Under the pieces are notes generated by a model. The model did not search any database and was not told the DNA's origin. It worked only from the letters and a program-made list of their open reading frames with translations. A stretch of 64,000 nt of DNA from Chloropicon primus (taxonomy: Eukaryota > Chlorophyta > Chloropicophyceae > Chloropicales > Chloropicaceae). Below are positions 889-64,000 of the stretch, one piece after another. Within the stretch, counting starts at the first letter, position 1. The number at the start of each line of letters is the position of its first letter. Made by a program: the position numbers and the translations under genes. The DNA lies in the NCBI GenBank assembly GCA_023205875.1, contig CP060761.1, forward strand, positions 558,001-622,000, in the 5' to 3' direction.

Positions 889-1112
889 GAACGTCTCGCG
901 ATCTTTCGATAGCGTGGTCGCACGAAAGAATCGGCAGTCTGAGGAGGATTTGGTGAGACTTTCCGTGTGACGACAAACAACTTGAGGTTGGGATCCAAAC
1001 CATGGATAGATTGTGCTGGGTAACTCGTGGAGAGGAGATTTTGGTAGGGGAGGAAGGTTGCGGCACGATAAAACGTCTCGCGATCTTTCAATATCGTGGT
1101 CGCACGAAAGAA
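889..1112 (+). promoter_or_regulatory. two gene-start elements upstream of the deacetylase gene
   Basis: Two copies of a roughly 45-base element lie 182 bases apart (about 889-930 and 1071-1112). Each reads, in gene sense, ACGTCTCGCGATCTTTC, then a GTGGTCGCA centre, then CGAAAGAATCGG. The CTTTCG and CGAAAG ends are inverted copies of each other separated by 14 bases (the second copy has CTTTCA). The start codon of the next gene is 65 bases after the second copy. The same element recurs upstream of many other genes in the window, so a promoter role is inferred; no transcript data are available. Confidence 0.55.
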
Positions 1113-1176
1113 TCGGCGCTCTGAGTGAGATGGGCACACGAAACGTTTCTTTTGGTGTGGCTTTGGACAGCACGCC

Positions 1177-2256
1177 ATGATCGCGGGCGGCCTGCTTCGT
1201 CGGGCGCACCCCTTGGTGGGGCTGGTGAGGGGATCCAAGACTCGTGCGTCCTCGCAGTACACCACCAGATCGTCGCGGTCGCCGTCGGCCATACCGCTGG
1301 TGTACCACGAGCTTTACTCGGGCACGGAGCTGCCCGCGGGTCACAGGTTTCCCATGCCCGTGTTTCGCAGGATATACCAAAAGCTGATGGAGTTGAACTC
1401 GATTGGGAGGGTTGACCTTCAGGTGCACGAGCCGGAGCTCTGCGAGGCGTCCCTGAGAGAAAAGCTAAGCCTAGTGCACACGGAGGAGTACATCCACAAG
1501 TTCATGCTAGGCGATTTGGATGCGAAAGAGATAAGGCGGATGGGGTTGCCTTGGTCGCCCTCTCTCGTGAAGAGAACTCTGAGCGAGCTCGCGGGGACGA
1601 TGATGGCAGCAGATCTGGCCCTATCCTCGCCATCGGGCGTGGCGCTCTCGTGTGCAGGCGGAACGCACCACGCTCACAAGGACTTTGGCTCTGGGTTTTG
1701 CATATTTAATGACATGGGCGTGACGGCCCTCTCCCTGCTGCAGGAAGAAAAAGTGGCGCGGGTGTTGATAGTCGACCTTGACGTCCACCAGGGCGATGGC
1801 ACGGCCGCGATCTTCGGTGGCAGCGGCGACGGGGAAGCGGAGAAGTACGAACGGAGCGTCTTCACCTTCTCGATGCACTGCCAAGACAACTTTCCTGCGA
1901 GAAAGCAGGAGTCGAGCATGGACATCGGTTTGCCCAGGGGGGTGGGGGACGCCGTGTATCTTCCCACCCTCGCCTCAAACTTGACGGATGTCGTGTCAAG
2001 GTACCAGCCGGACCTGGTGCTGTACGACGCTGGCGTCGACGTCCACGCCGAGGACCAGCTCGGGTACTTGCAACTGACAACGGAAGGGATCTACCGCAGA
2101 GACATGATTGTGCTGGACACTTGCGCAGCGTTCGGGGTACCGGTTGCGGGCTACGTGGGGGGAGGATACGCGGAGGATTTGGATGAGCTGGCCTGGCGCC
2201 ATTGCCAGCTCCACCTTGCCGCTCATGACTTGAATAACGTGGGGGCGAGTCCGTGA
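1177..2256 (+). CDS. class IV (HDAC11/HDA2-like) histone deacetylase
   Basis: The single-exon gene encodes 359 residues. The arginase-fold deacetylase domain spans about residues 40-350. Visible signature residues are the GGTHHAH catalytic histidine pair (H164-H165), the zinc ligands D202 and H204 in DLDVHQGDG, and the third zinc ligand D293 in DVHAEDQLG, followed by a GGGY turn. The family removes acetyl or longer acyl groups from lysine. The short domain without extra regions, and the GSGFCIFND segment, fit class IV HDAC11/plant HDA2 rather than class I or II. The first about 35 residues are rich in R, S and L with few acids and could be an organelle-targeting leader, as some plant HDA2-type proteins are reported outside the nucleus; that part is inference. 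The ATG is the first in frame after two upstream gene-start elements. Confidence 0.88.
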   Translation: MIAGGLLRRAHPLVGLVRGSKTRASSQYTTRSSRSPSAIPLVYHELYSGTELPAGHRFPMPVFRRIYQKLMELNSIGRVDLQVHEPELCEASLREKLSLVHTEEYIHKFMLGDLDAKEIRRMGLPWSPSLVKRTLSELAGTMMAADLALSSPSGVALSCAGGTHHAHKDFGSGFCIFNDMGVTALSLLQEEKVARVLIVDLDVHQGDGTAAIFGGSGDGEAEKYERSVFTFSMHCQDNFPARKQESSMDIGLPRGVGDAVYLPTLASNLTDVVSRYQPDLVLYDAGVDVHAEDQLGYLQLTTEGIYRRDMIVLDTCAAFGVPVAGYVGGGYAEDLDELAWRHCQLHLAAHDLNNVGASP

Positions 2257-6429: not shown

Positions 6430-6900
6430 GTCAAACGAGTCCACCAAGGCACCAATCGAAAGATCACGAGACGAAGATTTCGCCTGACGATCCTGTATTC
6501 CACTCCTCCCCCGTCCTCGTCGTCAAATGCCTCGCTGATTCCGCTGCACTCCTCCCCTTCCCTCGCCAGGAATCAATCAATCTCGTTCACACGGCGGGTC
6601 AATCCTTTGCCGATGCCGTCGACCAAGGTACCAATGGAAAGATATCGAGACGCACTTTCGTATGATGAACACGCCTTGCGCTTTCCTCTCCTCTGTCGTC
6701 GCCACCGTCCTCGCAAACACCTCCCCTCGCCAGGAATCAATCAATCTCGCTCACACGGCGTCTCCTCAGTCAATCCTTTGCCGATGCCGTCGACCAAGGT
6801 ACCAATCGAAAGCTCTCAAGACGCACTTTCGTGTGATCCTCTTGCCTTGCGCTTCCTCCCTCCTTCTCGTCGCGAAACTCGTTAGTGATTGCGGTCCATT
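6430..6900 (-). repeat. three tandem gene-start modules (periods about 179 and 171)
   Basis: Three related units carry ACCAAGG(C/T)ACCAAT followed by (C/G)GAAAG and a GAGACG-like flank, with the GAAAG box at about 6457-6462, 6636-6641 and 6807-6812. Units two and three also share CAGGAATCAATCAATCTCG and TCAATCCTTTGCCGATGCCG. The elements face the minus-strand NDUFAF2 gene in the same orientation as at other loci. Units one and two are almost identical to sequence at 27395-27625 in opposite orientation. The remainder of 6108-7055 shows no gene; AG-rich sequence near 7000-7045 is the leader of the AP-4 gene. Confidence 0.75.
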
Positions 6901-10976: not shown

Positions 10977-11440
10977 CCTTTCGAGAGACGGCTCATTCGA
11001 AAGAGCAAGAGCAAGAGCAAGAGCAAGAGCAAGACGCTTCCAATTGTCACGCTCTACGCTCGCCTTTCGACGGACGCCACCTTTCCTTTCCTTTCCTTTC
11101 CTCGCTGTTTACGTTGTCGACAGCCTTCCTCCATAAACCGCCAACCCTTTTTCGAGGAAGAGGTCGCTGGAAAGACCGAGGCGTAACGGTTCCGATCGAA
11201 GGAGAGTGAAGGAGGTGCAAGGGACGAAAGAGCTTCTCGCGGTCTTTCCGACAATACCTTGCTCGACCCATTTGGTGCTCGGATTGGTCGAGGAATCGAG
11301 TTTTGTTCCAGAGAAGGGAAGGAAAAAGTACCGGAGTGGTCTGCCTTGTCGAGGACGGTGACGGCGAGGACGGCGAGGAGAGGGGAAGTGGAGGGTGTTA
11401 TACGAAAGATCACCTCGAGAGCTTTCGATTGGTGTGTCGC
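10977..11440. promoter_or_regulatory. divergent gene-start elements between the RRM and ataxin-3 genes
   Basis: At about 10977-11010, CTTTCG - 14 bases - CGAAAG points toward the minus-strand RRM gene and runs into an AGAGCA hexamer repeat (about 11000-11035). At about 11229-11270 and 11406-11440 two reverse copies, 178 bases apart, precede the plus-strand ataxin-3 gene. They read CTCGCGGTCTTTCCGAC and CTCGAGAGCTTTCGATTGG. The TTTCC repeat at about 11079-11100 lies between. No coding sequence is evident. Confidence 0.5.
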
Positions 11441-11493
11441 TTGCCTGGTTTGGGTCACTTGAAGGGGAACAAACACTGCCAGTTCGTTGCTCG

Positions 11494-14417: not shown

Positions 14418-14846
14418 GTTCTCGCTCCTCTTCGGCAGCTTTTTTTTTTTTCATGCTGCTGCTGAGCTGGAAAGCAATCAGGCTTGGCTGGCCGTGGGAT
14501 CACAGCACGGCGGAGGTTGTGGATGGAGGGGTTGGAGCGGGAGGGGTTGGAGCGGGGAGGGGAGGGATCAGGACGAGACTCCGTCTCGCGGGCTTTCCAT
14601 CGAGCACTCGCTTGACGAAATGAACCGAGAAACGGATCGATGAAGGAAAGAAACGAGGGTGGACAAGCAACAGCACAAGTCGAGAGCCCTCCAAGGCTAC
14701 TACTGCTTTCGGATTGTTGGACCCCAATGGGTAAGAACGACGGCTTGCTGTCGCTCTTCGTAGCTCAAAACTAGATTACCGTGATTTGCTTCAGTGCAAT
14801 AAAATTTTCTTGAATCAAAATGGAACAAAAACGTGGGTGTACTCGC
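14418..14846. other. intergenic with an isolated gene-start-like element
   Basis: The spacer lies between two minus-strand genes. At about 14581-14621 it carries CCGTCTCGCGGGCTTTCC then GACGAAATG, resembling the gene-start element but in plus sense. No plus-strand gene is recognised downstream of it. AATAAAA near 14800 may belong to an unrecognised short plus-strand transcript. Confidence 0.4.
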
Positions 14847-16157: not shown

Positions 16158-17046
16158 CGTAACCTGAACAAGCAAAGCGGTGTCAGTCCCTCACACACAA
16201 CGACAGATGCCCTTCAAATCCTTCGAGGGAGGGGTCGAACGAAAGAGAAAGATGCGAGGATTTCATCCACGACACGCGAAGCGACCTCAAACGCAACCCC
16301 TCGCCGTCACACCAAGCCCAACACTCACCTTTCGATCCCTTCGTTTGCGTTTGTCCCCACCACCAAAAAAAATTAATAATAAAACGGTTCAGAACTCTCA
16401 AATCCTTAATACTGGACCAAATCCTTCGACCAAGGGGTCAAACGAAGCAGAAAGACGCGAGGCGTTCACCGTGCAGCCTCACTCCTTCCCTTGTCCGCCC
16501 CTTTGTCCGCCCGTCTCACCTCAAACCACGGCGCTCTGCCTCTTCCCCTTTTTGGCGGGAATGGGGGAGATTGATTTTGTCCAAATTTGGCGGGAAATCA
16601 TTCTGAATCCGAATTGAATCCTCGAGGGACTGGAGGTCCGTCAAGTGAGGAGCTCTTGGTCTTGGCCTCCTCCTTGACAAGGGAGCATCATCTTTATCGG
16701 TTTCATTCTCCTTCTCCTTCTCATCCATTTATTCTCTCTATCTTGTGTCAAGGTCCTCTTGTCTTTGGTTTCCTTCCTCCTTTCTGTGGACAGCAGACAG
16801 CAACCGGGTTCACCTTCCAGCTTACACAAGGACAAGGACGAGGAAACTCTTCGAGGACGGATACACACGCACGCACAGACAGACAGACAGACAGACAGAG
16901 AGAGAGAGAGGAACGCTGTGTCTGTGTGCGGCCAACGAGGCTTGGGTCTCATCATCTCCTGCCTTTTCATCGACGAGAGACAGCGGCGCCAACATCAGCA
17001 ACTGAATCACCTTGGATTGGCACAGCTTGGACGAGAGACTGCTGCG
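16158..17046. promoter_or_regulatory. divergent upstream region with two gene-start elements
   Basis: Two elements about 203 bases apart (about 16219-16260 and 16422-16465) read CTTCGA, a GGAGGGGTC or CAAGGGGTC centre, then CGAAAG or CGAAG, in the orientation expected for the minus-strand coiled-coil gene. A likely 5' UTR intron of that gene spans about 16168-16329. Towards the plus-strand EF-hand gene there are an ACAG repeat at about 16876-16898 and AG runs, and no further element. Confidence 0.5.
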
Positions 17047-24126: not shown

Positions 24127-26101
24127 CGTATCACCTCTGGGGGCACCGTGCGTCGTCGTCGTCGAACTGGTACCGGTCCGCGGTCCGTGAACACGAACAC
24201 GCCGCTGGTGTAACGGATGTGGAAACCTCCTCAGCGATTGTTCCACAGCTCGATCGATCCAGAGATCAACCGCACAACGTGGAAACGTATCGACAACCTC
24301 CCCTACCCTTCCCTTAAAAAAAAAAGTCAGACCTTCTCGAGGCCACCACAGGTACCCGAGGACAAGGCCAAGCACCAAGAGCACGAGACACCTCGAGTGT
24401 TACGTCACCGCGCTCGCCCTCTTCGTAACGGCAATCGGTTACGAAGGAGTCCACGCAAGAGAAGCCTCGACCAGGACGGTTAACCCTTTGGCTCGCTCGT
24501 TCGTTCGTGCGCGAGAGAGAGAGAGCCAAAAGGGGAACGTGGCTCTCTGTGTCAGCACTCCTGTAGCAGGGGGACGCGTGTCGTCTTCCTCTTCGTCGTT
24601 GCGGAGGATGGCGCACAGCGCGGGACTCGAACCGTCGCAAGGGAAAAAGACCTCGGTCCGCGTACTCGACCACCTCCGGAAGGGAAACCGAAGAGAGGAA
24701 GCGTAATCGAAAGAAGCACCGTGTCGCGCTCTCTTGTGGCTTCTCTTTTTCCGTCTCGTCGATCTCTCTCTCTCTGCGTTTCTACGAACGACATTCTACC
24801 TAGATGTTTCCGAATGTCGTATTTGAACTCATAAATCCACTGAACTACTCTCCATATACTTTAAATTTGAAGTATTGATATTTCTATAACGTCAAAAATA
24901 AAATATGTTTTTGTTCACGTGGCAACATCAGCTAGCGGGTTTCAACAGGCATGGCAAAGTGAGTCATGACGTTGACGACTCGGTGAGTCAATCGCACGGC
25001 AGTCACGTTCATGGCCAGCGGCCATCGGAGGTCTGCGTAACCCCAGCAGACGTCTCCGTGTCTCCGTCTCCGTCTGTGAACAACGGTTAGGGAGGCTTTT
25101 CTTGGAGAGGACCAAGAAACGAGGATGGATGGATGGATGCATTGCCTCTTGCTCTTTCCAATGAGCCCTCACTCGCGCGCTTTTGCTCCCTAGAGAGAGA
25201 GAGAGAGAGGAAGAGATTGGGGTGATCAGGATGGTGATGCGAGGAGTCGAGCAGAGCAAGAGGGGGATTGAATGCATGGATGGATTAAAGCTCGTACAAG
25301 CACAAGTAAATAGGGACTGGGTCTTTTGGCGTGGTCGGTATGATCGTACAGCATACTGGTGAATGATACCTTTACACACACACCACCTCACACACCTCAC
25401 AGACTTTTTCGTGGACGCCTCAACCACAGCCAAGGAGGTTGATCTTACTGACTTGGACTTGGACTTGGACTTGTCTTGGGCTTGATCCGCACATCCTCAT
25501 CCTCGCCATCGTCATCATCATCCTCGTCCTCGTCCTGGATGAAAAACGCTTCGGTTGTGTTGAGAAGTTTCGTCCATACCATACCTTTATACACACCACC
25601 ACCTCACACACCTCACAGACTTTTTCGTGGACGCCTCAACCACAGCCAAGGAGGTTGATCTTACTGACTTGGACTTGGACTTGGACTTGTCTTTGGGCTT
25701 GATCCGCACATCCTCATCCTCGCCATCGTCATCATCCTCCCGTCGTCCTCGTCCTCGTCCTGAAAAACGTGAACTTCTAGATGGCCAAAATTCTCGCCAG
25801 CCGACGAGGGGCGGAGGCAGACGAACCGTCGGTCGAGAGAGGGGGGGGACGTGACCTTCGTCTTCGTCTTCGTGACGACCGGGACGAAGGCCAGGAGGGA
25901 CACCTAAGAAGGGGCGGCAAGGCACAACACGAACACGAACTCCAACCGGTCGACCCTTTCGAAATTGCATTGCATTGCGGCAGAAAGCGACGCCACTCGT
26001 TTTCGACGACGACGACGAGGAGGTTGAATTGAATTGAATTGAATTGAATTGAATTGGCTTGGCTTGGCTTGGCTTGCGCCTGGTCCGCGCAACGAACAAC
26101 G
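24127..26101. other. repeat-rich intergenic region without recognised genes
   Basis: This divergent spacer of nearly 2 kb holds low-complexity sequence. It includes TTTAAATTTGAAGTA near 24860-24875, an AG run near 25192-25210, a tandem duplication at 25385-25770, and pentanucleotide runs of GAATT (about 26026-26055) and GGCTT (about 26056-26075) just before the hydrolase gene. Short ORFs here coincide with repeats and show no family resemblance. Confidence 0.55.
25385..25770. repeat. tandem duplication, 216-base period
   Basis: A block containing CTCACAGACTTTTTCGTGG, GAGGTTGATCTTACTGAC, a GACTTG hexamer run and CCGCACATCCTCATCC occurs twice, 216 bases apart (from about 25385 and about 25601). 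On the minus strand both read as an acidic then lysine/serine-rich peptide (EDVRIKPK). The two copies differ by a base in the shared part, so the reading frames diverge and conservation as protein is unlikely. Confidence 0.75.
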
Positions 26102-27394: not shown

Positions 27395-27625
27395 GAGTTG
27401 ATCATACCAAAGTGCGCCTCGAGAGCTTTCCATTGATACCTTGGTCGACGGCATCGGCAAAGGATTGACCCGCCGAGATTGATTGATTCCTGACGAGGGA
27501 AGGGGAGGAGTGCAGCGCAATCAGCGAGGCATTTGACGACGAGGACGGGGGAGGAGTGAAGAGCAAGGTCGCCAGGCAGAACCTTCGTCTCGCGAGCTTT
27601 CGATTGGTGCCCTCTCTTGACGACT
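27395..27625 (+). repeat. gene-start module pair shared with 6430-6700
   Basis: Two gene-start elements (CTTT of the core at about 27426 and 27597, 171 bases apart) precede the iron transporter gene. The whole block, including GATTGATTGATTCCTGACG and GACGACGAGGACGGGGGAGG, is the reverse complement of about 6470-6670 with only a few substitutions and one small deletion. The remaining parts of 27239-27686 contain no gene. Confidence 0.75.
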
Positions 27626-36066: not shown

Positions 36067-36164
36067 CGCACCCCTCAGGGCCTCTCGTCCTCGACCCAAT
36101 CCCTGCCTCCAATCCCTTCCTCGCCGAAGTCCTCGACCCAATCCTTCTCCAAACGAAACAAGCG

Positions 36165-36465
36165 ACCACTCCTTCGAAAGATCAAGAGATGATCTTTCAA
36201 TCTATCTCCTCTCTTGGCGCTCTCCTTTCCGGTTACTACCTCCAGCCGGCGCCAAAGCCGCTGCAGTCCTCGTCCTCCGTCCTCCTCCTCCTCGACATCC
36301 ACATCTGCCGGCTCCTCATCCCATGGACAATTTTGGTGGAACCGGAAGGGGAAGGAAACTGGAGAGAGGTGAGTGGTTTATGGATTGGTGGAGGACAAGG
36401 ACGAGGATTGGTGCGCTTGACAGCGATTGATTTCGAAACATTGTTTCGTGATCTTTCCAAAGAGT
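36165..36465. promoter_or_regulatory. divergent gene-start elements between HPRT and CLC
   Basis: CTTCGAAAGATCAAGAGATG at about 36170-36190 faces the minus-strand HPRT gene. GTTTCGTGATCTTTCC at about 36440-36455 faces the plus-strand CLC gene. The two are in opposite orientation, as the strand rule for this element predicts. Confidence 0.45.
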
Positions 36466-39229
36466 CCTCTCTTGAAACGAATGGCGTCGTATTGAGAATG
36501 TGAGAGAGTGAAACTGACTGGTGCTGGGTCTGGTCCTGGTTGAGGTAGGCTGGCCTAACTTGCAGGGGGAGGAGCACGTCGATGAGAGGGTGATGAGAAG
36601 GGGGAGCAAGACGTACATAGACTTGGCAACCCATAGCGACGACGAGGAGTTAGAGTTAGGAAGTATGCCTTTCGGAAGAAGTTCCTCGGCCAAGTACGAG
36701 GACGTGGATGCCTTGTATGGGTCAGAGGGGGGCAGGGCGACGTTCCACCTCAAGGAGGAGGAGCACCACCTCGAGGCATTGGAGAAGATGAACCGTTTCG
36801 AGTGCAAGGACTACGACATATGCGACTCGCAGCTCAACAAGCTCACAAACTCCGTCAAGTCCAAGAAGGAATACAACTTGAGGGAAGCTCTCTGTTGGCT
36901 CCTGCCCATCGTGATTGGGGTGTTGATGGGCATCACCGCCTTTGTTGTGGACATCGGCATCGAATGGGTCGTTACCTTTCGGTACGAGAGGACCAAGGAC
37001 AAGATCTACGCAAACAGCTCGAGCATTGCCCTGCCATTGTTCATATTCGTGTCCACGTCCGCGGCCTTCACTTGCGTTGCCGGCGGACTCGTCGCCTTCG
37101 TCGAGCCCCTCGCTGCTGGGTCGGGCATCCCTGAGGTGAAGACGTACCTCAACGGCGTAAGGATGAAGAACTTGCTTCACATCAAGACCCTCGTGGCCAA
37201 GCTTTGCGGGATCATGTTCTCCATAGGAGCGGGACTCATCGCAGGAAAGGAGGGGCCTTTTGTCCACGGTGGCGCCATTGTCGGGTCTGGAGTCTCGGCC
37301 ATGGCCAGCAAGGCCTTGGGCTGGAGGATCAATGGCAAGTACGCCAACCTTTTCAGGAATGACGTGGACCACAGGGAGTTCACGGCGATTGGCACTGCGG
37401 CTGGAGTGGCCACGGCATTTGGCGCTCCCATCGGCGGTGCCCTGTTTACCATCGAGGAGGGGTGCTCCTTCTACTCGACCTTTGTGTTCTGGAGGTGCTT
37501 CATCGCGACCTGCTCTGGCGTCCTGACCCTCCACGCTCTCGTGGAGGCGAGGCACACGACCTTTGATGTCTCCGAGGCGAAGCTCGGCAATCACAGGGAC
37601 TTCGGCCTGTACTCGGACGGCGATGCGAACTACGGGGAGGCGTTCTGGTACTACGTGTGGGAGTTCCCCGTGTTCGTGATTGTTGGCATCCTGGGAGGAT
37701 TGATGGGAGCCCTGTTCATCCACTTGAACGTCAAGATCACCATGTGGAGGAGGAAGCACATCCCGGTGGACAAGAGGAACAGAAGGTTCTACGAAGTTGT
37801 CGCGATTGCTGTCCTCACCTCCATCATCCTGTTCTCCTTCGCCAAGGCCTCGCCTTGCAGGACGCTGCCCGAAAACGCAGCCATCGAGGAGAAGTTCAAC
37901 GAAGAGGAGGCCGAGCTCTCGGGCGAGGACACGGTGAAGGAGGGGAGGCACATGTACTTCCCGAGGCTTTGGTGCGAGGAGGGCAAGTACAGTGTGTACG
38001 GGCAGCTGCTGATGGTCCCACTCTCCGAGGCGCTTCGGATGATCGTGCACTTGGGGGAGACGGTGGACTGCACAACCACCGGCTGCCAGTCTGAAATCTT
38101 CCCCTCCGCGTCGCTCTTCGTCTTCCTCGTCGTCATTTACCTGCTGATGACCCTGACATACGGAGTGAGCGCTCCCACGGGGCTCTTCGTGCCCAGTCTC
38201 GCGGTCGGAGCCGCGATGGGGCACTTGGTGGGCCAGATCCTTCAGAACAGCGTGGGCGCGGACAAGATCACGATCAACATGCACACGTACAGCATCTTGG
38301 GGGCTGCCGCCTCGCTCGGGGGAGCCACTAGAATGACCCTGAGCATTGCCGTCCTCGTGATGGAGACGACTGGCGCCATGCAGCTGATCGTCCCGATCAT
38401 GCTTGTCATCTTCATCTCCAAGATTGTCGGCGACTTCTTCAACGAGGGGATCTACGACACGCACATCCACATCCGCGGCGCTCCCTTGCTGGAGGAGAGC
38501 GGCCTGAGCTCCTCGCACAGGATGATCACCGAGAAAGTTTCGATTGGGGACGTGGCAAAGAAGGAGCTCGTCGTGCTGCCCAGCAAGATTCAGGTGAGGT
38601 CCCTGGTCGAGATCCTGAAGAACTGCAGCCACAACAGCTTCCCCATCGTCAACGGGGCCGAGAAGTCCAAGATGGTCATCGAGGGGTCCATCTCGAGGGT
38701 CGTGCTGTACAAGATGCTTGAGCATAGGCTGGGCCTGTACAACAACGCTTCCACGGCGGAGGGCGGCGAGGAGGAGGCATCCGGTGTGATGAGCGAGGAC
38801 TTGGATACCAAGTACGTCTTGCCAAAGGATCAGAGGAGGAGGAGGAACCTGCAAAACAAGCTGGAGCCAAGGATTGACGGGGAGCCCTTGCACCTGGATC
38901 TCCTCGAGTTCGAGCTGAACCAGGAGAACTTCCTGGAGTCCCACGTCTACGTGGACATGACCCCCTTCATGCAGCAGAACCCCTTCGTGCTCTCGCCGGA
39001 CACGAGCCTGAGTCGAGCGTACCACCTGTTCCGAACCATGGGTCTGCGTTACTTGTTAGTTGGCCACGCCCAGCCAGTGGTCTCGGGCATCATCACCAGG
39101 AAGGACCTCACCGAGGAGCACATCAAGATCTCCATTGGGAAGAAGGTGAGGAGGAGGATGAAGTCCAAGGCCACCGAGGACGCCGAGGACGTCGGTGAGC
39201 GCTCTGCCAACGACACCACCGGCAACTAA
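36323..39229 (+). CDS. CLC-6/7-like chloride/proton exchanger
   Basis: A short first exon (36323-36368, GTGAGT donor) and a long second exon (36549-39229) give 908 residues. Alternatively translation starts at MRRGSKTY (about 36590) in exon 2, and the choice is open. The membrane domain shows the CLC signatures GSGIPEVKTYLNGV, GKEGPFVH with the gating glutamate, and GLFVPSLAVG. IEEGCSFY matches the proton-glutamate region of CLC-6/7 type 2Cl-/H+ exchangers, so an endosomal or vacuolar exchanger is expected. GSGIP, with serine, favours chloride over nitrate. Two CBS domains follow at the C terminus (KIQVRSLVEILKNCSHNSFPIV; SLSRAYHLFRTMGLRYLLVG). The length fits the family. Confidence 0.9.
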
Positions 39230-43247: not shown

Positions 43248-43985
43248 CTCCTGCTGACACAACAAACGAATTCGTTCCTCGTTCCTTTGTCAATCCTTTC
43301 GACCGAGGAGTCTAACGAAAGCCAAGACCACGAAGCTTCCGCCTGTCACCCACACCCTCTCGTCCTACCTCGCCCTCGCCTCCTAGAGCGCCCTCCGCAA
43401 CCCTCTGTCTTTTTTTGTGTTCGCCTCCCTCTCCTGTCGAGTTGACAGACTGAAGGTGAAGGTGAGTGACGCGTTCTAAGGGACGAGGAGGGAGAGGGCG
43501 AGGAAAGTGGCGAGGGTGTGGGTGACAGGCGGAAGCGTCGTGGTCTCGTCTTTCGTTAGACTCCTCGGTCGAAAGGAATGACCAAGGAATGAGGATTTAG
43601 GACTGAAAAACGATTGCTTTCTCTTCCAAGGGAGACAGACAGGGGAGAGGTTGCGGAGGGCGCTCTGGTCGAGGAGGGCGAGGTAGGACGAGAGGGTGTG
43701 GGTGACAGGCGGAAGCATCGTGGTCTTGGCTGTCGTTAGACTCCTCGGTCGAAAGGAATGACCAAGGAATGAGGATTTAGGACTGAAAAACGATTGCTTT
43801 CTCTTCCAAGGGAGACAGACAGGGGAGAGGTTGCGGAGGGCGCTCTGGTCGAGGAGGGCGAGGTAGGACGAGAGGGTGTGGGTGACAGGCGGAAGCATCG
43901 TGGTCTTGGCTGTCGTTAGACTCCTCGGTCGAAAGGATTGACAAAGGAACGAGGAACGAATTCGTTTGTTGTGTCAGCAGTGGAC
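43248..43985. repeat. inverted promoter repeat with exact 180-base tandem copies, between PEX1 and SCCPDH
   Basis: The left arm, about 43252-43418, is nearly the reverse complement of the right arm, about 43815-43979. Both contain GACACAACAAACGAATTCG, CTTTCGACCGAGGAGTC, TCTAACGA and CGCCTGTCACCCACACCC or their complements. In addition, 43561-43740 and 43741-43920 are identical over all 180 bases, and a partial third unit begins near 43500. Each unit holds one gene-start element. The PEX1 and SCCPDH start codons are outside the two arms, 41 and 128 bases away, so each gene has its own copy of the same upstream sequence. The open frame across the units is an artefact, because 180 is a multiple of three. 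Confidence 0.9.
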
Positions 43986-44106
43986 GAACGCTTGGCGGAG
44001 AGTGGAAGACAAAAGCATCGGACGGGTCATCTTTTCCTCTTTCGAGTGAGTGAAGGGGAAGGTGTTTGGGATCCATCCATCGATCGATCGTACGGCGTTG
44101 GGCGCC

Positions 44107-45396: not shown

Positions 45397-46068
45397 TTAC
45401 GATGATTATTATTGCTGCCTGCTGTCATCCCTCATCACCTTCACTCTCCACCACCACCATCAATATCAATAGCCTTCCTCGACGCCATTCCTTGCAAGCG
45501 AGGGCTCTTTGGAAAGAGCAAGAGGCAAGCCCTCGACCCATTCGCGTGCCACCCATCCCCCGTCCCCTCCTCCTCCTCGGCATCCACTATCCACCACTGT
45601 CACCCCTCCTCCTCTGCTGCTGGAGATCCCCCGCGTCCATCGGTTCGGAGACAGAAGGAGCAGAGCAGAAGAGGAAGCGACAGCCAAGAGAGAGAGAGAG
45701 AGAGAGAGAGAGGAAAGAGAGAAGAGCGGAGGGAGGCAAGGCAACGCGGAGGATTCGCTGCCTCGACGGACGGAGCGGACCTTCTCACACACCACACCAC
45801 ACCACAACGCAACAACAAACCACGACGCAGACAGACAGACAGAGAGAGACAGACAGAGAGAGAGAGAGAGAGAGGGAGGACTCTTGAGTTCAGCGGAAGG
45901 AAGGGGAAGAGTATTGGATTCTGTTCTCCTCGATCGTCTTCACGAGGACGGGACTCGTGTTATTGAGAGAACCTCTCAATTTCATTCATTCATTGGTTCA
46001 TTCATTCGTTGATCAATACATCAGCGTTGCTCCTCCTCTTCAACAACAACAATAACATCAACATCATC
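45397..46068. other. intergenic / 5' leader of ALIX with AG microsatellites
   Basis: GAGAGA runs occupy about 45691-45720 and 45842-45873, and CACCACACCACACC lies near 45785-45800. CGAGGGCTCTTTGGAAAGAG at about 45500 is a weak match to the gene-start element. No other gene is visible. Confidence 0.45.
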
Positions 46069-49356: not shown

Positions 49357-49989
49357 CTTCGAACACCTTGATGCTCCTCCTCCTCCTCCTCTTCAAAACA
49401 AAAACGATAACGAAAACGAAACAAGTCAAGAGGTCAAGAGAGGTGCAGCTTCGTCGGTCCCCCTTGCCCTTCGCCCTTGCCCTTCGCCCTTGCGCTCTCG
49501 CTCTCGCTCTCTCGCCTCTTGTGCGAAAGGGTTTGCTTGCTTTTGCTTTTCTCTCTCTCTCTCTCTCTCTCAAGGCAGTGGAGGAGGGAGGAGGCAATGG
49601 CTGGAGTTGTGGACGGATGGAAGGCGGAGGGAGGAGGGAGGGACTCCGAGGGTGGTGCACAACGATAGATCGTCTCAAGATCTTTCGATAGATGGGTCTC
49701 GTTACAATGGGTGGCCGCCTGGAGAGGAAGGGGAAGGATCGATCAGCAGGAGGCGCTGGGGTCCGAAGGACAATGACGAGAGGGAGGGACAAAGGCGGAG
49801 TCTTGGTGGCAGCCAATGCCAGCATCGTGCTCGTATGGGATAGATTAGACTTTTATTGTGATCAATCACGTAGTCTTGCTCCGTCTTTTTGAAGCGCCGT
49901 CATCTTTCGGGTGGCTCCCCTGCCCCTCAAGGACTAAGAGGTCGCACCGAGGAAGGCGACAGGAGGACGGGACCTAAACCCGAGTGGAG
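49357..49989. other. intergenic with an isolated gene-start-like element and a possible short ORF
   Basis: CTCC and CTCT runs lie at about 49376-49392 and 49551-49573. At about 49655-49700, CGATAGATCGTCTCAAGATC followed by TTTCGATAGATGGGTC matches the gene-start element in plus sense. A plus-strand frame of 66 codons starts at 49692 and ends at 49892 but shows no family resemblance. A second cluster of Arg codons near 49440-49520 is low complexity. Confidence 0.4.
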
Positions 49990-51694: not shown

Positions 51695-52705
51695 TTAGAC
51701 CAAGGCATCGCCAGCGTAGACCGACTCTTCGATGAAGCACTCGTTGACGCCTCTCTTGATCTTGAAGTACCCGTGAAGGTTGCCCCAGTAATCGCCCCAG
51801 GAGTTCGCAATCAGCCAGTAAGGCACAGAATTGTCCACGCCCCAGCCAACAATCTTCACGGCGTGTCCGCCCGCGAGCAAGTCGCCGAAGTCCCACCACG
51901 CGCGCTGGTACACGCCTTCCTTGTAACCGAAGAACGACTGGTACACGAGGAAGCCGGCCTCGACTGGACCGCCGGTCATGATCGCCTTCTGGATGTCAGC
52001 AACGGTGGACAGTCTATAATAATTCTTCGCCTTGTACCGGATCGGCTTCTCTCCGCTATCAGGGCACCTGGTGGCGTGCTCCCAGTCCTTGGGGCACTGG
52101 ATGGGCCTGCCATCGCCGGCAAGGTACTCCATGCAAGTCTCGGTCACCACGCCGTGCTCCTCGAGGTACAGCCAAGCCAAGTTGACGAGGCCTCCCTTGC
52201 AGCCGAAGGAGAGGTCATCGCAGCTCACCAAATCCTCTGGAGAAAGCGTAACGTTGACCTTGCCGTTGGTGGCGATGGCGAATCTGTCGGCCAGTGACTC
52301 CACAGCCCCAAAGGCCCAGCAAGATCCGCACCTCTCCTGGTTCCTGATAGCACCGATGAGTCCTGGCCACTGCTCTCTGGCATCAAAGCTATCCGGGATG
52401 TCCTCGTCCCTGATGTGGTCGAAGGACTTGGTTGGCTGCATGCTCTTCTCCTCGTCGGAGAGGTCGAGCCTCGCTCCCATGAGCTTCTTCGCGTCCTGGA
52501 ACGTCATGCCCTCGAAGAACTCGTTCTGTCCCGCGACCCAAGTCACGTTCTCTGCTCTGTTGTGAGCCAGAACCTTGATGGGATCAATAGCAGCCATCCT
52601 CTCTTTACTCCTGCCAAAGTCTCTGGCGGCGGTGGCCACACCAAACACGGCAGCAATGACGGACAATGCCAAGCATGCTGATCTCCCTCTCCTTTGCGTC
52701 ACCAT
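51695..52705 (-). CDS. cathepsin B-like cysteine protease, copy 2
   Basis: The single-exon gene encodes 336 residues. The start at MVTQRRGRSA was chosen because it directly precedes the signal peptide core (ALSVIAAVFGVATA); the frame is open upstream. The proregion motif WVAGQNEFFEGMT, the junction DIPDSFDAREQW, the active-site Cys (C129) in ERCGSCWAF, the His in GGHAVKIVGW and the Asn in IANSWG are all present. The region corresponding to the occluding loop (PIQCPKDWEHATRCPD) has one His rather than the HH pair. It shares SFDHI-DEDIPDSFDAR with copy 3. A gene-start element lies at about 52825-52865. Confidence 0.93.
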   Translation of the reverse strand: MVTQRRGRSACLALSVIAAVFGVATAARDFGRSKERMAAIDPIKVLAHNRAENVTWVAGQNEFFEGMTFQDAKKLMGARLDLSDEEKSMQPTKSFDHIRDEDIPDSFDAREQWPGLIGAIRNQERCGSCWAFGAVESLADRFAIATNGKVNVTLSPEDLVSCDDLSFGCKGGLVNLAWLYLEEHGVVTETCMEYLAGDGRPIQCPKDWEHATRCPDSGEKPIRYKAKNYYRLSTVADIQKAIMTGGPVEAGFLVYQSFFGYKEGVYQRAWWDFGDLLAGGHAVKIVGWGVDNSVPYWLIANSWGDYWGNLHGYFKIKRGVNECFIEESVYAGDALV

Positions 52706-53381
52706 CCTTCCTCTCAAACTCTCCGTCCAAACTACACTTGGACAAGCAATGACAAGCAGAGGAAACCCCAAGGCGAAGAAAAAAACATAGTTTAGTCTCC
52801 AAGATTCACCAAGACGCCAATCTTTTCAAGGAAGGGGTCAAAGGAAAGCCCCAGGGATGAAGCATGGGACTCATGCTTGTGGCTCCACCCCGTTTCTCCC
52901 TGTCTTTGGTGCCGAAAGCCAACCAAGAGCTCACCTTTGCGGTGCGATGTGAGAGGATGCCAACACAAAAAGTGAGAAACTGGGGAGGAAGCTTGACAGG
53001 GGCGATGGGGGTGAGGGGGGTGAGGAGGAAGAGGAAGGGAAGGATGGGGAAGGGGTGATTCACGGATGCATAGATCGCGTCCTCCTCTTTCCATAGAGCT
53101 CTCACTTGAAAGGAATGATGAGGAGGAGGGGAGTGAGGAAGTTTTTGGAGTGAGAGAGTCGTAGAGAGTGGACCAGACACAAGTTGGAGGAGAGGTAGAG
53201 CCGAGGGGATGTTGTGCTGGACGGAGGACACCTCGGTGCTTCTTTTGATCTTTCGTGGATTACAAAAAGATTTTTTTTTCGTAACAACAACAACAAAACC
53301 TGAATCACCGGCGGCGGCACTCCGTCGTCGCGCAGACGCCCAGGCGTGGCTCAAGTCTTGATCAAGGGAAAGAAAAAAAAC
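52706..53381. other. spacer between cathepsin copies 2 and 3, with gene-start element
   Basis: The element at about 52825-52865 reads TTTTCAAGGAAGGGGTCAAA then GGAAAG, upstream of copy 2 in the usual orientation. A poorer match (CTCTTTCCATAGAGCTCTC) lies near 53088. No gene is seen in the rest; a T-rich run lies near 53270. Confidence 0.45.
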
Positions 53382-54341
53382 TTAAGCCAAGAGTGGATGT
53401 CCGGCGTAGACGGTGGACTCGATCTGGCACTCGTTGACGCCTCTCTTGATCTTGAAGAATCCGTCAAGACCCCAGTCGGTTCCCCACGAGTTGGCGATGA
53501 GCCAGTAGTCAGTTCCGTCCTGGTTTCCCCAGCCAACAATCTTGATGGCGTGGCCGCCCATGAGCTCATCCCAGAACTGCCACCACTCCCTGGAGTAGAC
53601 ACCAGACTTGTAGGCCATGAAGGACTTGTAAACCTCGAACCCAGCCTCGACAGGACCGTTCGTCATGATGGCCTTCTGGATATCCTCCACGGTAGCGAGT
53701 CTGTAGTAGTCCTGGGACTTGTACTTCTTGTAGGTCTGGCCCTGAGCGGCGCACTGTCCAGCAGCTGGGCATGGAGCAGCCTGTCCGTTTCCAGCAGTGT
53801 ATGGGAAGCAAGCATCAGAGACAATACCGGTCTCGGAGAGGTACTTCCAGGCCTGGGACAAGATACCACCGTTGCAACCCATGTCTCCGGTGTCACAAGA
53901 GACGAGGTCCTCAGGGGACAAGACAACGTTGATGCTTCCGTTGGAGGCAATGGCGAATCTGTCGGAAAGAGCCTCGGAGGCGGCGAAGGCCCAGCAAGAT
54001 CCGCACCTCTCCTGGTTCCTGATAGGGTGGATGAAGTTAGGCCACTGAGCCCTGGCATCAAAGCTATCAGGGATGTCCTCGTCCTTGATGTGGTCGAAGG
54101 ACTTGACGGGCTGAGCGTACAAGAACTTGTCCTCGAGCAAGGTACCCATCAACTTCTTCGCGTCCTTCAAGGTCTTTCCCCTGAAGAACTCGTTCTCACC
54201 GGCAACCCACTTGGATGGTCCCATGTTGTGGGCGTTGATGTGCCTCGTATTGATGGCCATCTCCTCGTTGGAGAAGTCCCTGGCAGCGTTAGCCACTCCG
54301 AGGAGGGCAAACAGGACTGCATACGTCAAGTACTTGTTCAT
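53382..54341 (-). CDS. cathepsin B-like cysteine protease, copy 3
   Basis: The single-exon gene encodes 319 residues. A signal peptide (YLTYAVLFALLGVANA) precedes the proregion (WVAGENEFFRGKTLKDAKKL) and the mature protease starting DIPDSFDARAQW. The catalytic Cys is C116 in ERCGSCWAF, with His in GGHAIKIVGW and Asn in IANSWG. The occluding-loop position is a short Ala/Gly/Pro segment (TAGNGQAAPCPAAGQC) without histidines. Copies 2 and 3 are closer to each other than to copy 1. The start MNKY is the first ATG of the signal peptide. The gene-start element at about 54450-54495 is about 115 bases upstream. Confidence 0.94.
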   Translation of the reverse strand: MNKYLTYAVLFALLGVANAARDFSNEEMAINTRHINAHNMGPSKWVAGENEFFRGKTLKDAKKLMGTLLEDKFLYAQPVKSFDHIKDEDIPDSFDARAQWPNFIHPIRNQERCGSCWAFAASEALSDRFAIASNGSINVVLSPEDLVSCDTGDMGCNGGILSQAWKYLSETGIVSDACFPYTAGNGQAAPCPAAGQCAAQGQTYKKYKSQDYYRLATVEDIQKAIMTNGPVEAGFEVYKSFMAYKSGVYSREWWQFWDELMGGHAIKIVGWGNQDGTDYWLIANSWGTDWGLDGFFKIKRGVNECQIESTVYAGHPLLA

Positions 54342-55206
54342 ACTTCTTTGCGTTTCTCTAGCAACCACAAAACTTTAGTTCTAGCCATCCCAACAAACCA
54401 AAGATAGAGAGACAGACAGACAGGTTTCAGTTTCCTCCAATCTTCAAAAGAACGTCGTTTCTTTCGACAGAGGGGTCAAATGAAAGGTTAAGACGTAAGG
54501 AAGTCACTTGTGTCCTTTCCTTTCGTCGTCCTTCCCTCCCCTTGCTCTCCTTGTCGCCGCCTTCCTTACCTCTTCTGTGTTCCACTTTGGGCTCCAAGGT
54601 GCAATCTTGGAATTGAGGGAGCAGAAAAGGAAAAGGAAGGACAAAGTGACGGCGTGCAGTGCAAAACTCCTGTTGAGGGTTCCTTTGGAGATGAACCAGC
54701 TGTCGTCGACGGCCGACGTGGAGGCTACACCCAGTTTTGCGATGGAGTGTGGAGGAAGGAAGGAGGCGCTGGCAATGCAGTGTGTTGAAGCCTGAAGCCT
54801 GAAGAAGCCTGCTGAAGATGAAGCTGGAGATGAAACGTTGGTGGTAGTGCCGTCAGCCTGACTGGGAATGGCAACAAGATTGTCTACACCCAACACGCAA
54901 AAGAACGCCCAGTTTTGCGATTGAGGAGGAGGAAGGAGGAAGGATGCGGTGGCAATGCAGGGATCCCAAGGACAATCTTTAGGAGCACTCGACTGGGGAA
55001 GCGGATTGGGTCGATTGGTGGGTCAAGAGGTTGACCAAGAGGGAAGCAATCCAAGGAGAGGACCATCCTTGAGCTCTTCATTCACCTTTTTTGCCCCTGG
55101 ATCGATTTCCTTGGATTCCTTTGGTCTTCCTTTCTTCCATTTTTCAATGATAATATGAATTTCATTGTCGTCGTACACAGAAGCCAAGGCGGCCTTGACT
55201 TTTGGT
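54342..55206. other. upstream region of cathepsin copy 3 with gene-start element and a diverged duplication
   Basis: At about 54450-54495, CTTTCGACAGAGGGGTCAAA then TGAAAGG matches the gene-start element with the exact 14-base spacing. Further right, CAGTTTTGCGATGGAGTG and GGCAATGCAG (about 54731-54780) recur as CAGTTTTGCGATTGAGGA and GGCAATGCAG (about 54911-54960), a diverged duplication with a period of about 180. Small open frames here show no protein family. Confidence 0.55.
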
Positions 55207-60249: not shown

Positions 60250-61200
60250 TCACTCGAAGAGGGTGTCCTCGAAGAGCTGGCCCTTCTTGAAGGCGGTCAC
60301 GAAAGGCTTGTGAGAGATGTTTCCCTTGGCAGCGTTCGCCTTGGCTTGTGCCTCCCTCTGCGCGGTGGACTTGTACGGCGTGCTCGCTCTCAGCGTCGGC
60401 TCGCTCGTCAACACGTTCGAGCTTCCGGCGCTGATGAATGGCTTGTACGTGATCGGGGTCCTGCCAGCGAATCGTTCCTTTGTCTCGGCAAAGGAATCCT
60501 CGAAGCTCTTGTCGAGCCCCGCGATGGAGTTCTCGTCCACCTGAGGCAACGTCTTCGCCAGCTCGCCCTTCTTCGTCTTCCTGAGGTAATCCTCCACGTG
60601 CTGGCCCGCAATCGTCGGCGGACCCCCAGTCAACGCCGTGTAAGGAGAATTGAAGATGCTCGGGCAGCTCTCCGTCGATATCAAGTGATGAAGCTTGGAG
60701 AATATCTCCTCGAACTTGACCTGACACTCGGCATACTTTGTGGTCTCCTCGTACTCCACCTGCCTCTTGTGGCTCGACCTCATCTCCTTCACCACCTCCT
60801 CGGACCGACGCGTCACTTCCCTAATGTACTCCTTCCTCGCGTAAAAGTCATGCTTGTACTTTCTTGACATGAATGCCCTGTAGTGCTTCTGAATGCAGAT
60901 GGCCTGCTTGTTGAAGTACTCCACCCTGAGGGCGATGATGTGCTGATGGAGGAGCTTCTTGTGTTTCTTCTTCGCAAGACGGGCCCTGTAGACCTTCTGA
61001 ATCACCACAGCGTGACCATTCAGCCTGCTCAGACTCCGTCGGACCACGAAGGCTCGATAATAGCTCTGTATCACAGTGGCAGCATGGGACTCCAACTCGC
61101 GATTCTCCTCCGCGAGTTTTGACTGCTCGAAGAAGCCTTGGAGGACATCCTTCTTGAAGTCCGTGAAACGGTTCTCGACCCCAAGAGACGTCATCGGCAC
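60250..61200 (-). CDS. SPATA17-like IQ-motif ciliary protein
   Basis: The single-exon gene encodes 316 residues. It begins FTDFKKDVLQGFFEQSK and carries three consecutive IQ-like motifs: AATVIQSYYRAFVVRRSL, AVVIQKVYRARLAKKK and AICIQKHYRAFMSRKYK, expected to bind calmodulin. A charged helix (YIREVTRRSEEVVKEMRSSHKRQ) and TSTESCPSIFNSPY-like TESCPSIFNSPYTALTGGPP follow. The pattern fits SPATA17, a conserved protein of motile cilia, found in the radial spoke or central apparatus region. Its presence suggests a flagellated stage. The C-terminal third is Lys/Thr/Ser rich and variable. A gene-start element lies at about 61332-61375. Confidence 0.8.
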   Translation of the reverse strand: MPMTSLGVENRFTDFKKDVLQGFFEQSKLAEENRELESHAATVIQSYYRAFVVRRSLSRLNGHAVVIQKVYRARLAKKKHKKLLHQHIIALRVEYFNKQAICIQKHYRAFMSRKYKHDFYARKEYIREVTRRSEEVVKEMRSSHKRQVEYEETTKYAECQVKFEEIFSKLHHLISTESCPSIFNSPYTALTGGPPTIAGQHVEDYLRKTKKGELAKTLPQVDENSIAGLDKSFEDSFAETKERFAGRTPITYKPFISAGSSNVLTSEPTLRASTPYKSTAQREAQAKANAAKGNISHKPFVTAFKKGQLFEDTLFE

Positions 61201-61930
61201 ACCCTAATTGCCTAGAACCGGGCTTGGCCAACACAAACACACACACAAACACAAAAAAACTTGTGGCACAAACCAAACGAAATGCTCCAACCCCTTTGAC
61301 TCCCAAACCTCTTCCGCTCGAGTTTTTGAACAAGGTTGGTACCAATCGAAAGGTCTCGACAAGACGCTTCGTTTGATTTCGGTGTCGGCCTCTTCGCGAC
61401 CCTCCCCTCGCCGAGACAACCTCCACAACCCGCGACACTTTGTCCTCCTCCTCGGTCCTCGGTGAAACTGGTCAAACCTAAGCCAAAGATTTCGTCGTAT
61501 AGCGTTCTAATTAGAGAAAGACATAACGGAGCATCCAATCAAACGATGGCGATGGCGATGGAGAGCAAGGTGGACAACACCACGTGGAACGTGATGAGCT
61601 CCCAGATGACATATCAACCTCTCCGTGAGTTCCTCTCTCTCTCTTCCCTCTTCTCTCTTCTCTCTTCTCTGCTGCGCTCCTTTGCTCGCCTCCAGGCACC
61701 TGAGAGAGAGACAGAGAGAGAGAGAGCATCAGAGGGACGACACGTGCATGAAGGGAGGTCCTGGTGAAGAGTCGGTCCAGCAGAAGTGTACTGAAACGGG
61801 GCAGGGCAAAGATTCACGACGATCTTGGCAACATTATTTTCCCATTGAAGATTGTTTAACGTCACTGCGGCCTCCCTCCTCTTCTTCTTCTTCTTCTTCT
61901 GCTTTTTCTTGTCAACACGCAAGTGGAGCG
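61201..61930. other. intergenic with gene-start element and a possible short plus-strand exon
   Basis: The element at about 61332-61375 reads AACAAGGTTGGTACCAATCG then AAAGGTCTCGACAAGACG, facing SPATA17. A plus-strand frame starting at 61546 (MAMAMESKVDNTTWNVM) runs to a GTGAGT donor-like site near 61624 and might be a first coding exon, but no convincing continuation was found. AG runs lie near 61699-61724 and a TCT triplet run near 61878-61900. Confidence 0.4.
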
Positions 61931-63367
61931 TTACAGGAGGTGTGGCTTGCGACCTCTTTGCTCGTGCTTGTAGTCGCAGCGGCTGCAAATGTACTCGAGG
62001 ACCTCGTCGTGCTCTTGGATCTCGTCGTAGCCCCACGAAGGATCGATGGGGCTCTCCCTCAGGGTCTCGCAATTTGCCAGGCACCACGGCTCGAAACTGT
62101 CGAAGCCCGACATCTCGTGGAGCGTCTTGTCCCTCAACCTCCCCTCGTCGTACTCCTTTTGAATCCTCTGAACCAGCGGCGAGTCCAGAAGGCACGACCG
62201 GAGGTCCTCCTTGGTTTCCACGTCCGGATCGCACCCCGCGCTCTCCGTCGCGAATTCCTTGCAGTACAACCCAAAGTCCGTTTCGTGGCAAACGTCCACG
62301 AACTTGTCAAAGGTGGACGGATACAACGAGTTGGAGCTCACCGCCCACGACCTTTCGTGATTGTACACGGCGTGGAGCGTCGCGGGAGGCAAGTAAATGA
62401 AATCGCCGCCGACGAGGGTTCCCTCGTGTACCGTAACGTCCGCCAAGTCTGGAAAAGCTTCGAGGTCAGGATTCCATACTTCCAATTGCCTCGTCTCCTC
62501 CTCCCCGGGCCCCTTCGAGCGGATCGTCGTGCTGGGCCTGTCTTGATCCTCGTAGAAAGACAGAGCCTGCGAGCTTCTCGTCTCGTTGTACAAGATGGTC
62601 CTAAAGGTTTTCTTGCCCTCGTAGACAACCATCCAGAAAGGAATCAGCATCGAGTCCATGTGGAGCTCGCTCTTCGTTCCTGCGGGGCCGATGAAAACCT
62701 CGGGCTGGCCTTGCTGCAGGTACTTGGCTTCACCGCCTTCGGTTGCGTTGTTGTAGACCTGGTCCACGGGGATGAGCGCGGACGACACGAAGCTGGGGAT
62801 TTTGGCAAAGTGATCCAGCGGAGGACACAATTCGGGAATTCCGACGCCGCCCGAAGCATACCTGAGTTCCTCCTCTCCACCGCCACCAGAGAGCACGTGC
62901 CTCTCAATGTATGTGGCCAGCTTCATCTTCTTTGTGTCCTCAAGGCCAGCCCAATCCGCAGCCGTCTCGCTGTACGTCGTCGTCTCGATCGTGCTTCCGC
63001 CACACAGGTCTTTCAGCCCCTGCCACCCCAGCCCGAACGCCGGGTGGCTTCGTGCTTCCCCCTCAACGATGACCACCTCGTCTCCGTGCTTGTCGAAGAA
63101 CTCCTTCACGCTGATCGAGCCCGCAGGGATCCTGGTGATTGGGACGATATGGAGCCCATCCCTCCGCTGCACCTCGCCAGGAGATCCCTCGCCGCTGTCC
63201 GTGGGGGTGTCATCACCCCTGATCAGACCCGAAAGCCTCCTCGGTGGAGGGCGGGCCCCACGATACCACCTCAAGGAACACAGTGATGCCAAGGCGAACA
63301 CCGATAGAGCAACGATGATGATGTTGATCCTCCCACCGGACCTTTGCCTCGCATACGGCACCCCCAT
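61931..63367 (-). CDS. JmjC-type dioxygenase with N-terminal membrane anchor
   Basis: The single-exon gene encodes 478 residues starting MGVPYARQRSGG. A hydrophobic segment at about residues 15-33 (INIIIVALSVFALASLCSL) looks like a signal anchor, placing the bulk in the secretory lumen. The cupin/JmjC domain has the iron-binding HxD in SELHMDSMLIPFW, GKKTFRTILY, GDFIYLPPATLHAVYN with the distal His, and a preceding PEVFIGPAGTKSE. The C-terminal region is Cys-containing (DVCHETDFGLYC; FEPWCLANC; YICSRCDYKHE), consistent with disulfides. It is probably a 2-oxoglutarate-dependent hydroxylase of the cytoplasmic/ER JmjC group rather than a histone demethylase. The substrate is unknown. Confidence 0.82.
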   Translation of the reverse strand: MGVPYARQRSGGRINIIIVALSVFALASLCSLRWYRGARPPPRRLSGLIRGDDTPTDSGEGSPGEVQRRDGLHIVPITRIPAGSISVKEFFDKHGDEVVIVEGEARSHPAFGLGWQGLKDLCGGSTIETTTYSETAADWAGLEDTKKMKLATYIERHVLSGGGGEEELRYASGGVGIPELCPPLDHFAKIPSFVSSALIPVDQVYNNATEGGEAKYLQQGQPEVFIGPAGTKSELHMDSMLIPFWMVVYEGKKTFRTILYNETRSSQALSFYEDQDRPSTTIRSKGPGEEETRQLEVWNPDLEAFPDLADVTVHEGTLVGGDFIYLPPATLHAVYNHERSWAVSSNSLYPSTFDKFVDVCHETDFGLYCKEFATESAGCDPDVETKEDLRSCLLDSPLVQRIQKEYDEGRLRDKTLHEMSGFDSFEPWCLANCETLRESPIDPSWGYDEIQEHDEVLEYICSRCDYKHEQRGRKPHLL

Positions 63368-64000
63368 GGCTTCTCCCAGATCCGATGCACCCCTAAGCAA
63401 GCATTGAGGCCATGGCAAGGAAGGATCACCATTCGCCTCACCACTTCATCGCCCTCCCACCCAGAGCTCCTTTCTCTCCTACCTCCTGGTCCACCTCCTT
63501 TGCCTGTCAAGCAAGATATTACTTGGAGCACGAGCACGCTCTGGAGTCCACCAAGGGTGAAAGGTAGCGAGAACGGTGGATCACCACTCGCCTCACCACC
63601 TCATCGCAATGAAGCCCTCCCCTCCACCGCCTCCCTCTCTCCCACCTCCTCCTGATGCCCTGCTGACCAGCAGCTGGAGAGACCTCCCAGGAGGCTCGAA
63701 AGATGTTCCTCAAAACGGGCCAAGCGAGGGGTCAAACGAAAGGTCTCGAGGTCTAGTTTCGCTCCACGGGGTCAGACAAGAGTTTCACGCGCTCTGTTCG
63801 CCTCTGCTTCACCCTTTGTGCTGCCAAAGATGGGATCTTGGGTTGGATCTTGCTGAATTCTGTCCATCTGGAGCTTTGAAATACGACAGACGAAAGTCCA
63901 TCGAGGCCAAGGCGGTCGAGAGGGAGAGAGAGGGTAAGTTATCGATAAGATGGACGCACGAAGTGGAGAGGGGAACAAGAGAGAGGGTGATGGATGGAAA
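63368..64000. other. right-end intergenic with diverged duplication and gene-start element
   Basis: GGATCACCATTCGCCTCACC (about 63424) recurs as GGATCACCACTCGCCTCACC (about 63580), a diverged duplication about 156 apart. At about 63718-63760, AGCGAGGGGTCAAACGAAAG followed by GTCTCGAGG matches the gene-start element facing the JmjC gene. The window ends in AG-rich sequence, and no gene is recognised from 63770 on. Confidence 0.45.

Follow-up and report, generated by a model that had tools for sequence, protein, structure and literature searches.

One short element recurs upstream of genes in a 64,000-base stretch of a nuclear chromosome of Chloropicon primus RCC138 (C8:558001-622000; hereafter the window). 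What is this element, and what could it do there? The species is described as a very small green alga of marine waters that has few introns (PMC6731263), and the Chloropicophyceae as important in marine phytoplankton (PMC12301720). A VPS33-like protein encoded in the window matches a C. primus protein with full identity across the aligned 88% of its length. An earlier, sequence-only reading of the window had taken the element for a core promoter or factor-binding module common in this genome. The element is directional, dyad-cored, promoter-proximal by predicted starts, iterated near 180 bp and unevenly spread. It is probably an oriented promoter-proximal element of one gene class, bound by a putative dimeric protein that would sit in nucleosome linkers. 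The same-strand iteration near 180 bp, the GAG/CTC inner dyad and a third half-site are new features beyond the earlier reading.

Sequence, symmetry and number of the element

The core of the element is a 26-bp dyad, CTTTCGAnnGAGnnCTCnnTCGAAAG, recognised from the perfect sites. With up to 3 mismatches in 20 positions, it had 657 sites genome-wide (17,584,162 bases, 20 contigs of C. primus), against 2 for the reversed pattern. The exact asymmetric half-dyad occurred 494 times (2 reversed) and the flank TCGAAAGMBCDMGAGACG, with at most one mismatch, 532 times (2 reversed). For CTTTCG-N14-CGAAAG, with at most one mismatch in all, 518 sites were found against 68. These counts are a cleaner test than the window copies described below, because 13 of those 29 copies were among the 31 seeds of the profile hidden Markov model (HMM) that was used to find them.

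The hexamers CTTTCG and CGAAAG had been read as usually lying exactly 14 bases apart. With up to one mismatch, 9 such pairs stood at gap 14 in the window and 0-3 at every other gap from 8 to 21; a fourth-order Markov model gave an expectation of 0.2 for gap 14. Of the 29 copies, only 9 fit this gap within one mismatch per hexamer. The centre given earlier, ACCnAGG followed by GGTC or TACC, is a local variant. The inner dyad is GAG/CTC, and the usual centre among the genome-wide sites listed is AGCGAGGGCTCTTT.

Sixty elements served to describe the motif: the 29 of the window, 20 from 15 three-kb loci on C1-C3 and 11 from four short stretches. The whole element is directional and about 70 bp long, with a consensus in gene orientation of approximately GGAAGCGTCGTCTCGTGAT-CTTTCGAAAGAGCCCTCGCTCGAAAG-GAATGGC...GGTGAGGATT. 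Most of the information lies in the first ten bases of the dyad, and conservation tracks the dyad columns, fading gradually past about -20 and +50. A third half-site of the CGAAAG type (at most one mismatch) begins 19 bases upstream in 14 of the 60 copies and 20 bases upstream in 12, and the gene strand of the upstream DNA is rich in G. The GTGAG found in the flank on the gene side was considered as a 5' splice site; on inspection this was dropped, since TGAGGAT, AGGATT or the like stands there in many copies.

The seven symmetric inner pairs of the dyad showed no covariation, all being near shuffled values (38 distinct sequences from 50 exact sites listed, C1-C9). Because the inner pairs do not covary, the symmetry appears to be of the kind that a protein dimer reads, and a hairpin, in RNA or DNA, was rejected. 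The exact dyad had no match in viral and prokaryotic collections, a result of little weight because such collections may not include close relatives of C. primus.

Copies in the window and their position relative to genes

The HMM found 29 elements in the window at a cut-off of 9 bits, with the stronger match kept where matches overlapped. All 22 coordinates of the earlier reading, which had claimed more than 20 copies, fall on these. The seven further copies comprise a weak one at 44018-44050 and palindromes near 11149, 14593, 25154, 45491, 49682 and 53087. Among the 29, four (near 6616, 6787, 11229 and 11406) score only 9.3-10.3 bits, within HMM noise, but match the hand consensus at 21-28 of 37 bases. 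In two 100-kb control blocks (C1:200001-300000 and C2:200001-300000) there was one match of at least 9 bits (10.8), and reversed sequence gave 9.4 at best. The coordinates of these blocks were arbitrary, but they were picked at a time when none of the exact sites listed until then lay inside them.

The copies are as follows; the strand is the transcription direction that the element faces, and spacings are in bp.

903..928, +: core, distal copy, histone deacetylase gene at 1177 (+) (HMM, dyad)
1085..1110, +: core, proximal copy, ATG at 1177; 182 from the previous copy
6437..6462, -: core with degenerate left half-site (hand consensus, HMM)
6616..6641, -: core; spacing 179; HMM weak (10.3 bits)
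6787..6812, -: core; spacing 171; HMM weak (9.5 bits)
10978..11003, -: core, 19 of 20 dyad positions
11149..11174, -: core, newly added; spacing 171, no detectable spacer homology
11244..11269, +: core, distal copy; HMM weak (9.8 bits)
11422..11447, +: core, proximal copy; spacing 178, no detectable spacer homology; HMM weak (9.3 bits)
14593..14618, +: core, newly added; exception, no predicted gene start on the gene-facing side
16220..16245, -: core, proximal copy, predicted gene 15333-16157 (-)
16423..16448, -: core, distal copy; spacing 203
25154..25179, +: core, newly added; orientation exception
27426..27451, +: core, distal copy, VIT-family gene at 27687 (+)
27597..27622, +: core, proximal copy; spacing 171, no detectable spacer homology
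36155..36180, -: core, phosphoribosyltransferase gene 35470-36066 (-); divergent partner of 36453..36478
36453..36478, +: core, CLC channel gene at 36593 (+)
43296..43321, -: core, Pex1-like AAA gene 40011-43211 (-)
43550..43575, +: core, first of a near-identical 180-bp series
43730..43755, +: core, second of this series
43910..43935, +: core, third of this series; predicted gene at 44107 (+)
44018..44050, +: weak partial copy (12.5 bits), close upstream of 44107
45491..45516, -: core, newly added; exception, faces the 3' end of gene 44107-45396
49682..49707, +: weak core, newly added; exception (hand consensus, HMM)
52823..52848, -: core, papain-family protease gene 51695-52705 (-)
53087..53112, +: core, newly added; exception
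54461..54486, -: core, papain-family protease gene 53382-54341 (-)
61327..61352, -: degenerate core, IQ-motif gene 60250-61194 (-)
63717..63742, -: degenerate core, Cupin_8 gene 61931-63367 (-)

Genes were predicted from in-frame hexamers and open reading frames (ORFs), and gene starts are predictions throughout. On its gene-facing side the element meets a predicted gene start in 49 of 56 cases; the 56 leave aside four of the 60 elements that had no gene to either side. At the 15 three-kb loci, which contributed to building the motif but not to its relation to genes, the figure was 18 of 20. The earlier claim that orientation is locked to gene starts holds for 24 of the 29 window copies, with exceptions at 14593, 25154, 45491, 49682 and 53087, which face no start. 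On the opposite side of the 60 elements there were 37 starts, 12 3' ends and 11 cases without a gene in reach, the many starts arising because many intergenic regions are divergent. Where starts flanked both sides (30 elements), the gene-facing start was the nearer in 26. All of these figures are counts, not probabilities, because tandem copies are not independent.

Copies were classed by hand as proximal (29) or distal (18), with 13 of the 60 in neither class. The distance between the midpoint of a proximal copy and the predicted start ranges over 56-212 bp, with a median of 100, and the proximal and distal consensus sequences are alike. By predicted starts, the element therefore stands upstream of genes in a set orientation, as a promoter-proximal cis-regulatory element does. 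No common function is evident among those element-bearing genes that have a Pfam match: they include a histone deacetylase, a Pex1-like ATPase, a CLC channel, a VIT-family member, a phosphoribosyltransferase and papain-family proteases, in agreement with the earlier reading.

The five exception copies may point to transcripts that are antisense or have escaped annotation. At 45491 the element looks towards an ATG, after which GTAAGT follows.

Uneven distribution over genes and chromosomes

Promoters of confidently predicted genes (score of at least 80, with an ATG) were scored with a position weight matrix (PWM) built from the same 60 elements. Scores in the window, taken in the gene-facing orientation, were bimodal: 11 of 26 promoters scored at least 26 and 15 scored -6 or lower. 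In the control blocks none of 87 genes had an element (best score -7.9), and none of these promoters reached 12 in reverse orientation. Most of the promoters scored do not carry the element, and a core promoter module common throughout the genome, as proposed earlier, is not supported by these counts, nor by the long stretches of C1 and C3 from which the exact half-dyad is absent among the matches listed.

These stretches were evaluated on C1-C3, from matches listed through C5, with sites within 1 kb merged and p calculated under uniform placement. No exact half-dyad was listed from 85 to 937 kb on C1 (p about 1e-4) or from 679 to 1245 kb on C3 (p 0.004). C2 had one past 888 kb, and its largest gap (p 0.06) was not significant alone. 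The control blocks on C1 and C2 were 74 and 78% coding, with a GC content of 0.586 and 0.589, against 62.5% and 0.566 in the window. Ten proteins from them belong to ordinary genes too (a nitrate-reductase-like protein, a kinesin, a dynein assembly factor and others).

The hexamer TGGGCC occurred 22 and 12 times in intergenic DNA of the element-free blocks (C1 and C2), against 3 times in the window, so TGGGCC and the element may belong to separate classes of promoter. In the control blocks CGTAACG at first seemed enriched upstream of genes; it was rejected as a promoter motif of these blocks, being equally common in the window. Tentatively, and with somewhat more doubt than belief, we suggest two promoter architectures arranged in large domains, one with the iterated nucleosome-phasing dyad element and one without it but with other motifs (e.g. 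C1:85-937 kb). A domain-wise split of promoter types inside one small genome would be unexpected.

Spacing of copies near 180 bp

Spacing was counted as pairs of exact TCGAAAG words on the same strand, start to start, with both strands summed. There were 20 pairs at 117-147 bp, 230 at 157-187 bp, 29 at 188-196 bp, 32 at 197-227 bp and 48 at 342-372 bp (0.65, 7.4, 3.2, 1.0 and 1.5 per base of range). The reversed word gave 12, 43, 10, 21 and 10 pairs in the same order. The 230 pairs still include at least 5 matches from an array (C2:1760-1763 kb), and some pairs enter once for each strand. Removing five array matches and second-strand readings from the first 100 of the 230 left 86 merged pairs, 62 of which fall at 176-187 bp.

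The array itself (C2:1760065-1762159) is a dense repeat with exact TCGAAAG pairs about 159 bp apart. It lacks the flank of the element and was taken as unrelated.

The nucleosome core measures 147 bp. A spacing of about 180 bp would correspond to one such core plus 33 bp, the dyad measuring 26 bp; this is a general value that may not be that of this alga.

Proposed mechanism and alternatives

The dyad symmetry points to a DNA-binding protein, as the earlier notion of a factor-binding module implied, and the element may work like a general promoter factor site. We infer that a protein dimer reads the 26-bp dyad as double-stranded DNA. Direction would be set by the asymmetric flank with its third half-site 19-20 bp upstream, because orientation is locked to genes. 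Further copies lie about 180 bp, roughly one nucleosome repeat, farther upstream. The putative factor would sit in linker DNA and hold it open, phasing the nucleosomes between copies, and transcription would start just downstream. If true, this would be a rare case of the DNA sequence itself carrying a nucleosome ruler at promoters.

Several points weigh against this reading. The gene starts come from our own hexamer and ORF predictions. Seven of the 56 elements face a 3' end, and in 4 of the 30 elements with two flanking starts the other start is nearer. Fifteen of the 26 confidently predicted window genes have no element, and in reverse orientation 5 of the 26 window promoters also reach a score of 12, mostly through a divergent neighbour's copy or an exception. 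The reversed word gives 43 pairs at 157-187 bp, above its other ranges (10-21); this word, GAAAGCT, is not a clean control because it overlaps with elements and with repeats reading TCGAAAGCT. Half of the adjacent pairs compared have spacer homology, so duplication contributes. For this alga no nucleosome repeat length was found.

The alternative that survives best is an ordinary transcription factor site of a gene class, such as a light, cell-cycle or nutrient programme, in which the copies at about 180 bp would be enhancer-like or mark alternative starts and would not lie in linkers. The restriction to a subset of genes (11 of 26 window genes and none of the 87 from the control blocks) and the likeness of distal and proximal copies would fit such a site. 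The Pfam-matched genes, however, have no evident common function, and a narrow spacing near 180 bp, kept amid unrelated spacers, is unexpected for ordinary clustered sites. We regard this explanation as unlikely.

A little less probable still is that the spacing is a mere relic of tandem duplication of a promoter unit, a view that concerns the spacing only and is compatible with a promoter role. Eighteen adjacent pairs at 150-215 bp, some from one series, were compared by gapped alignment. Spacers were homologous at p<0.005 in 9 of them, some nearly identical. In the other 9 no homology was detectable at this level (two were borderline, p 0.03 and 0.04), and tandem duplication alone therefore seems insufficient. 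In five of the homology-free pairs the elements themselves are merely 41-54% identical. An earlier, stronger claim from an ungapped self-comparison, that most spacers are unrelated, was dropped after the gapped test. Pairs still cluster near 180 bp genome-wide, and there is no known reason for duplications to share one length. Duplication seems to feed the process, yet the preference for a length near 180 bp seems to be maintained.

A dispersed mobile repeat that piled up upstream of genes, either like a miniature inverted-repeat transposable element or the terminal repeat of a Fanzor2 DNA transposon, is very improbable. Copies do number in the hundreds, some local ones are recent duplicates (43494-43853; 6448-6585 and 27474-27611), and Fanzor2 transposons with terminal inverted repeats are reported from C. 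primus (PMC10711439), which counts for such an origin. A mobile repeat should have constant ends and free orientation, but homology ends vary among the 13 pairs laid out, conservation follows the dyad and fades gradually, and orientation is tied to genes. One of the 43 Fanzor-domain copies lies within the examined blocks (C2:220185), with no element nearby. A transposable repeat inserted at random, which the sequence-only reading had named as a refuting finding, is thus not what the copies look like.

The 43 genome matches to PF07282 (TnpB/Fanzor zinc domain), many with long open frames, occur in element-rich and element-free regions alike. Repeats found by RepeatModeler are given as 4% of the first C. 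primus assembly (PMC6731263) and 9.09% for RCC138 (PMC12301720).

That the element is transcribed and acts as RNA, as a hairpin or a small non-coding RNA gene, can practically be dismissed: the core is palindromic, the units measure about 180 bp and a few copies lie away from predicted gene starts, but the seven inner pairs do not covary in the 38 distinct sequences and Rfam gave no match at gathering cut-offs. A tRNA was rejected by a tRNA search with bacterial settings.

Comparison with known systems

The words 'promoter' and 'palindrom' are absent from the main text of PMC6731263 and PMC12301720. Among the matches listed from openly licensed papers, none described the element in its title or the start of its abstract, which fits the earlier statement that no equivalent has been described. 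The literal core CTTTCGAAAG does occur in 67 such papers, none of those listed seeming relevant by title or abstract. Nor was a promoter study of Chloropicophyceae among the matches.

The yeast general regulatory factors Reb1, Abf1 and Rap1 have sites in many unrelated promoters, where they are thought to open DNA and phase nucleosomes. Like these sites, the element is sequence-specific and lies just upstream of many unrelated genes. It differs in being a two-part 26-bp dyad within about 70 bp that is oriented, repeated at about 180 bp and confined to certain regions. Site II (TGGGCC), a plant and algal promoter motif near the gene starts of a gene class, is likewise a short motif near starts, but its intergenic copies are more numerous in the element-free blocks than in the window. 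The CENP-B box is a TTCG-containing protein site in the 171-bp alpha satellite. The element shares the TTCG and a nucleosome-like repeat period, but is dispersed, promoter-linked and dyad-symmetric and forms no satellite array.

In other prasinophytes, nucleosomes are reported to be well positioned and DNA methylation to be linker-specific (PMC12636532, PMC5728721, PMC12695648). The periodicity of 5-methylcytosine and N6-methyladenine is described at CG or ApT, in gene bodies and downstream of transcription start sites (PMC12636532, PMC12695648). Common to both cases is a nucleosome-scale periodicity near genes in small green algae. The element, known here from sequence alone, differs from this modification pattern as a long conserved sequence that recurs upstream of predicted ATGs.

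Further features of the window

Three tandem papain-family (C1) protease genes lie at 49990-54374 (-). The gene at 49990-50988 has no element, and the other two each have one upstream. An inverted pair of 138 nt with 90% identity (6448-6585 and 27474-27611) represents a recent copy, shared between two loci in their promoter regions, that spans the element and its surroundings.

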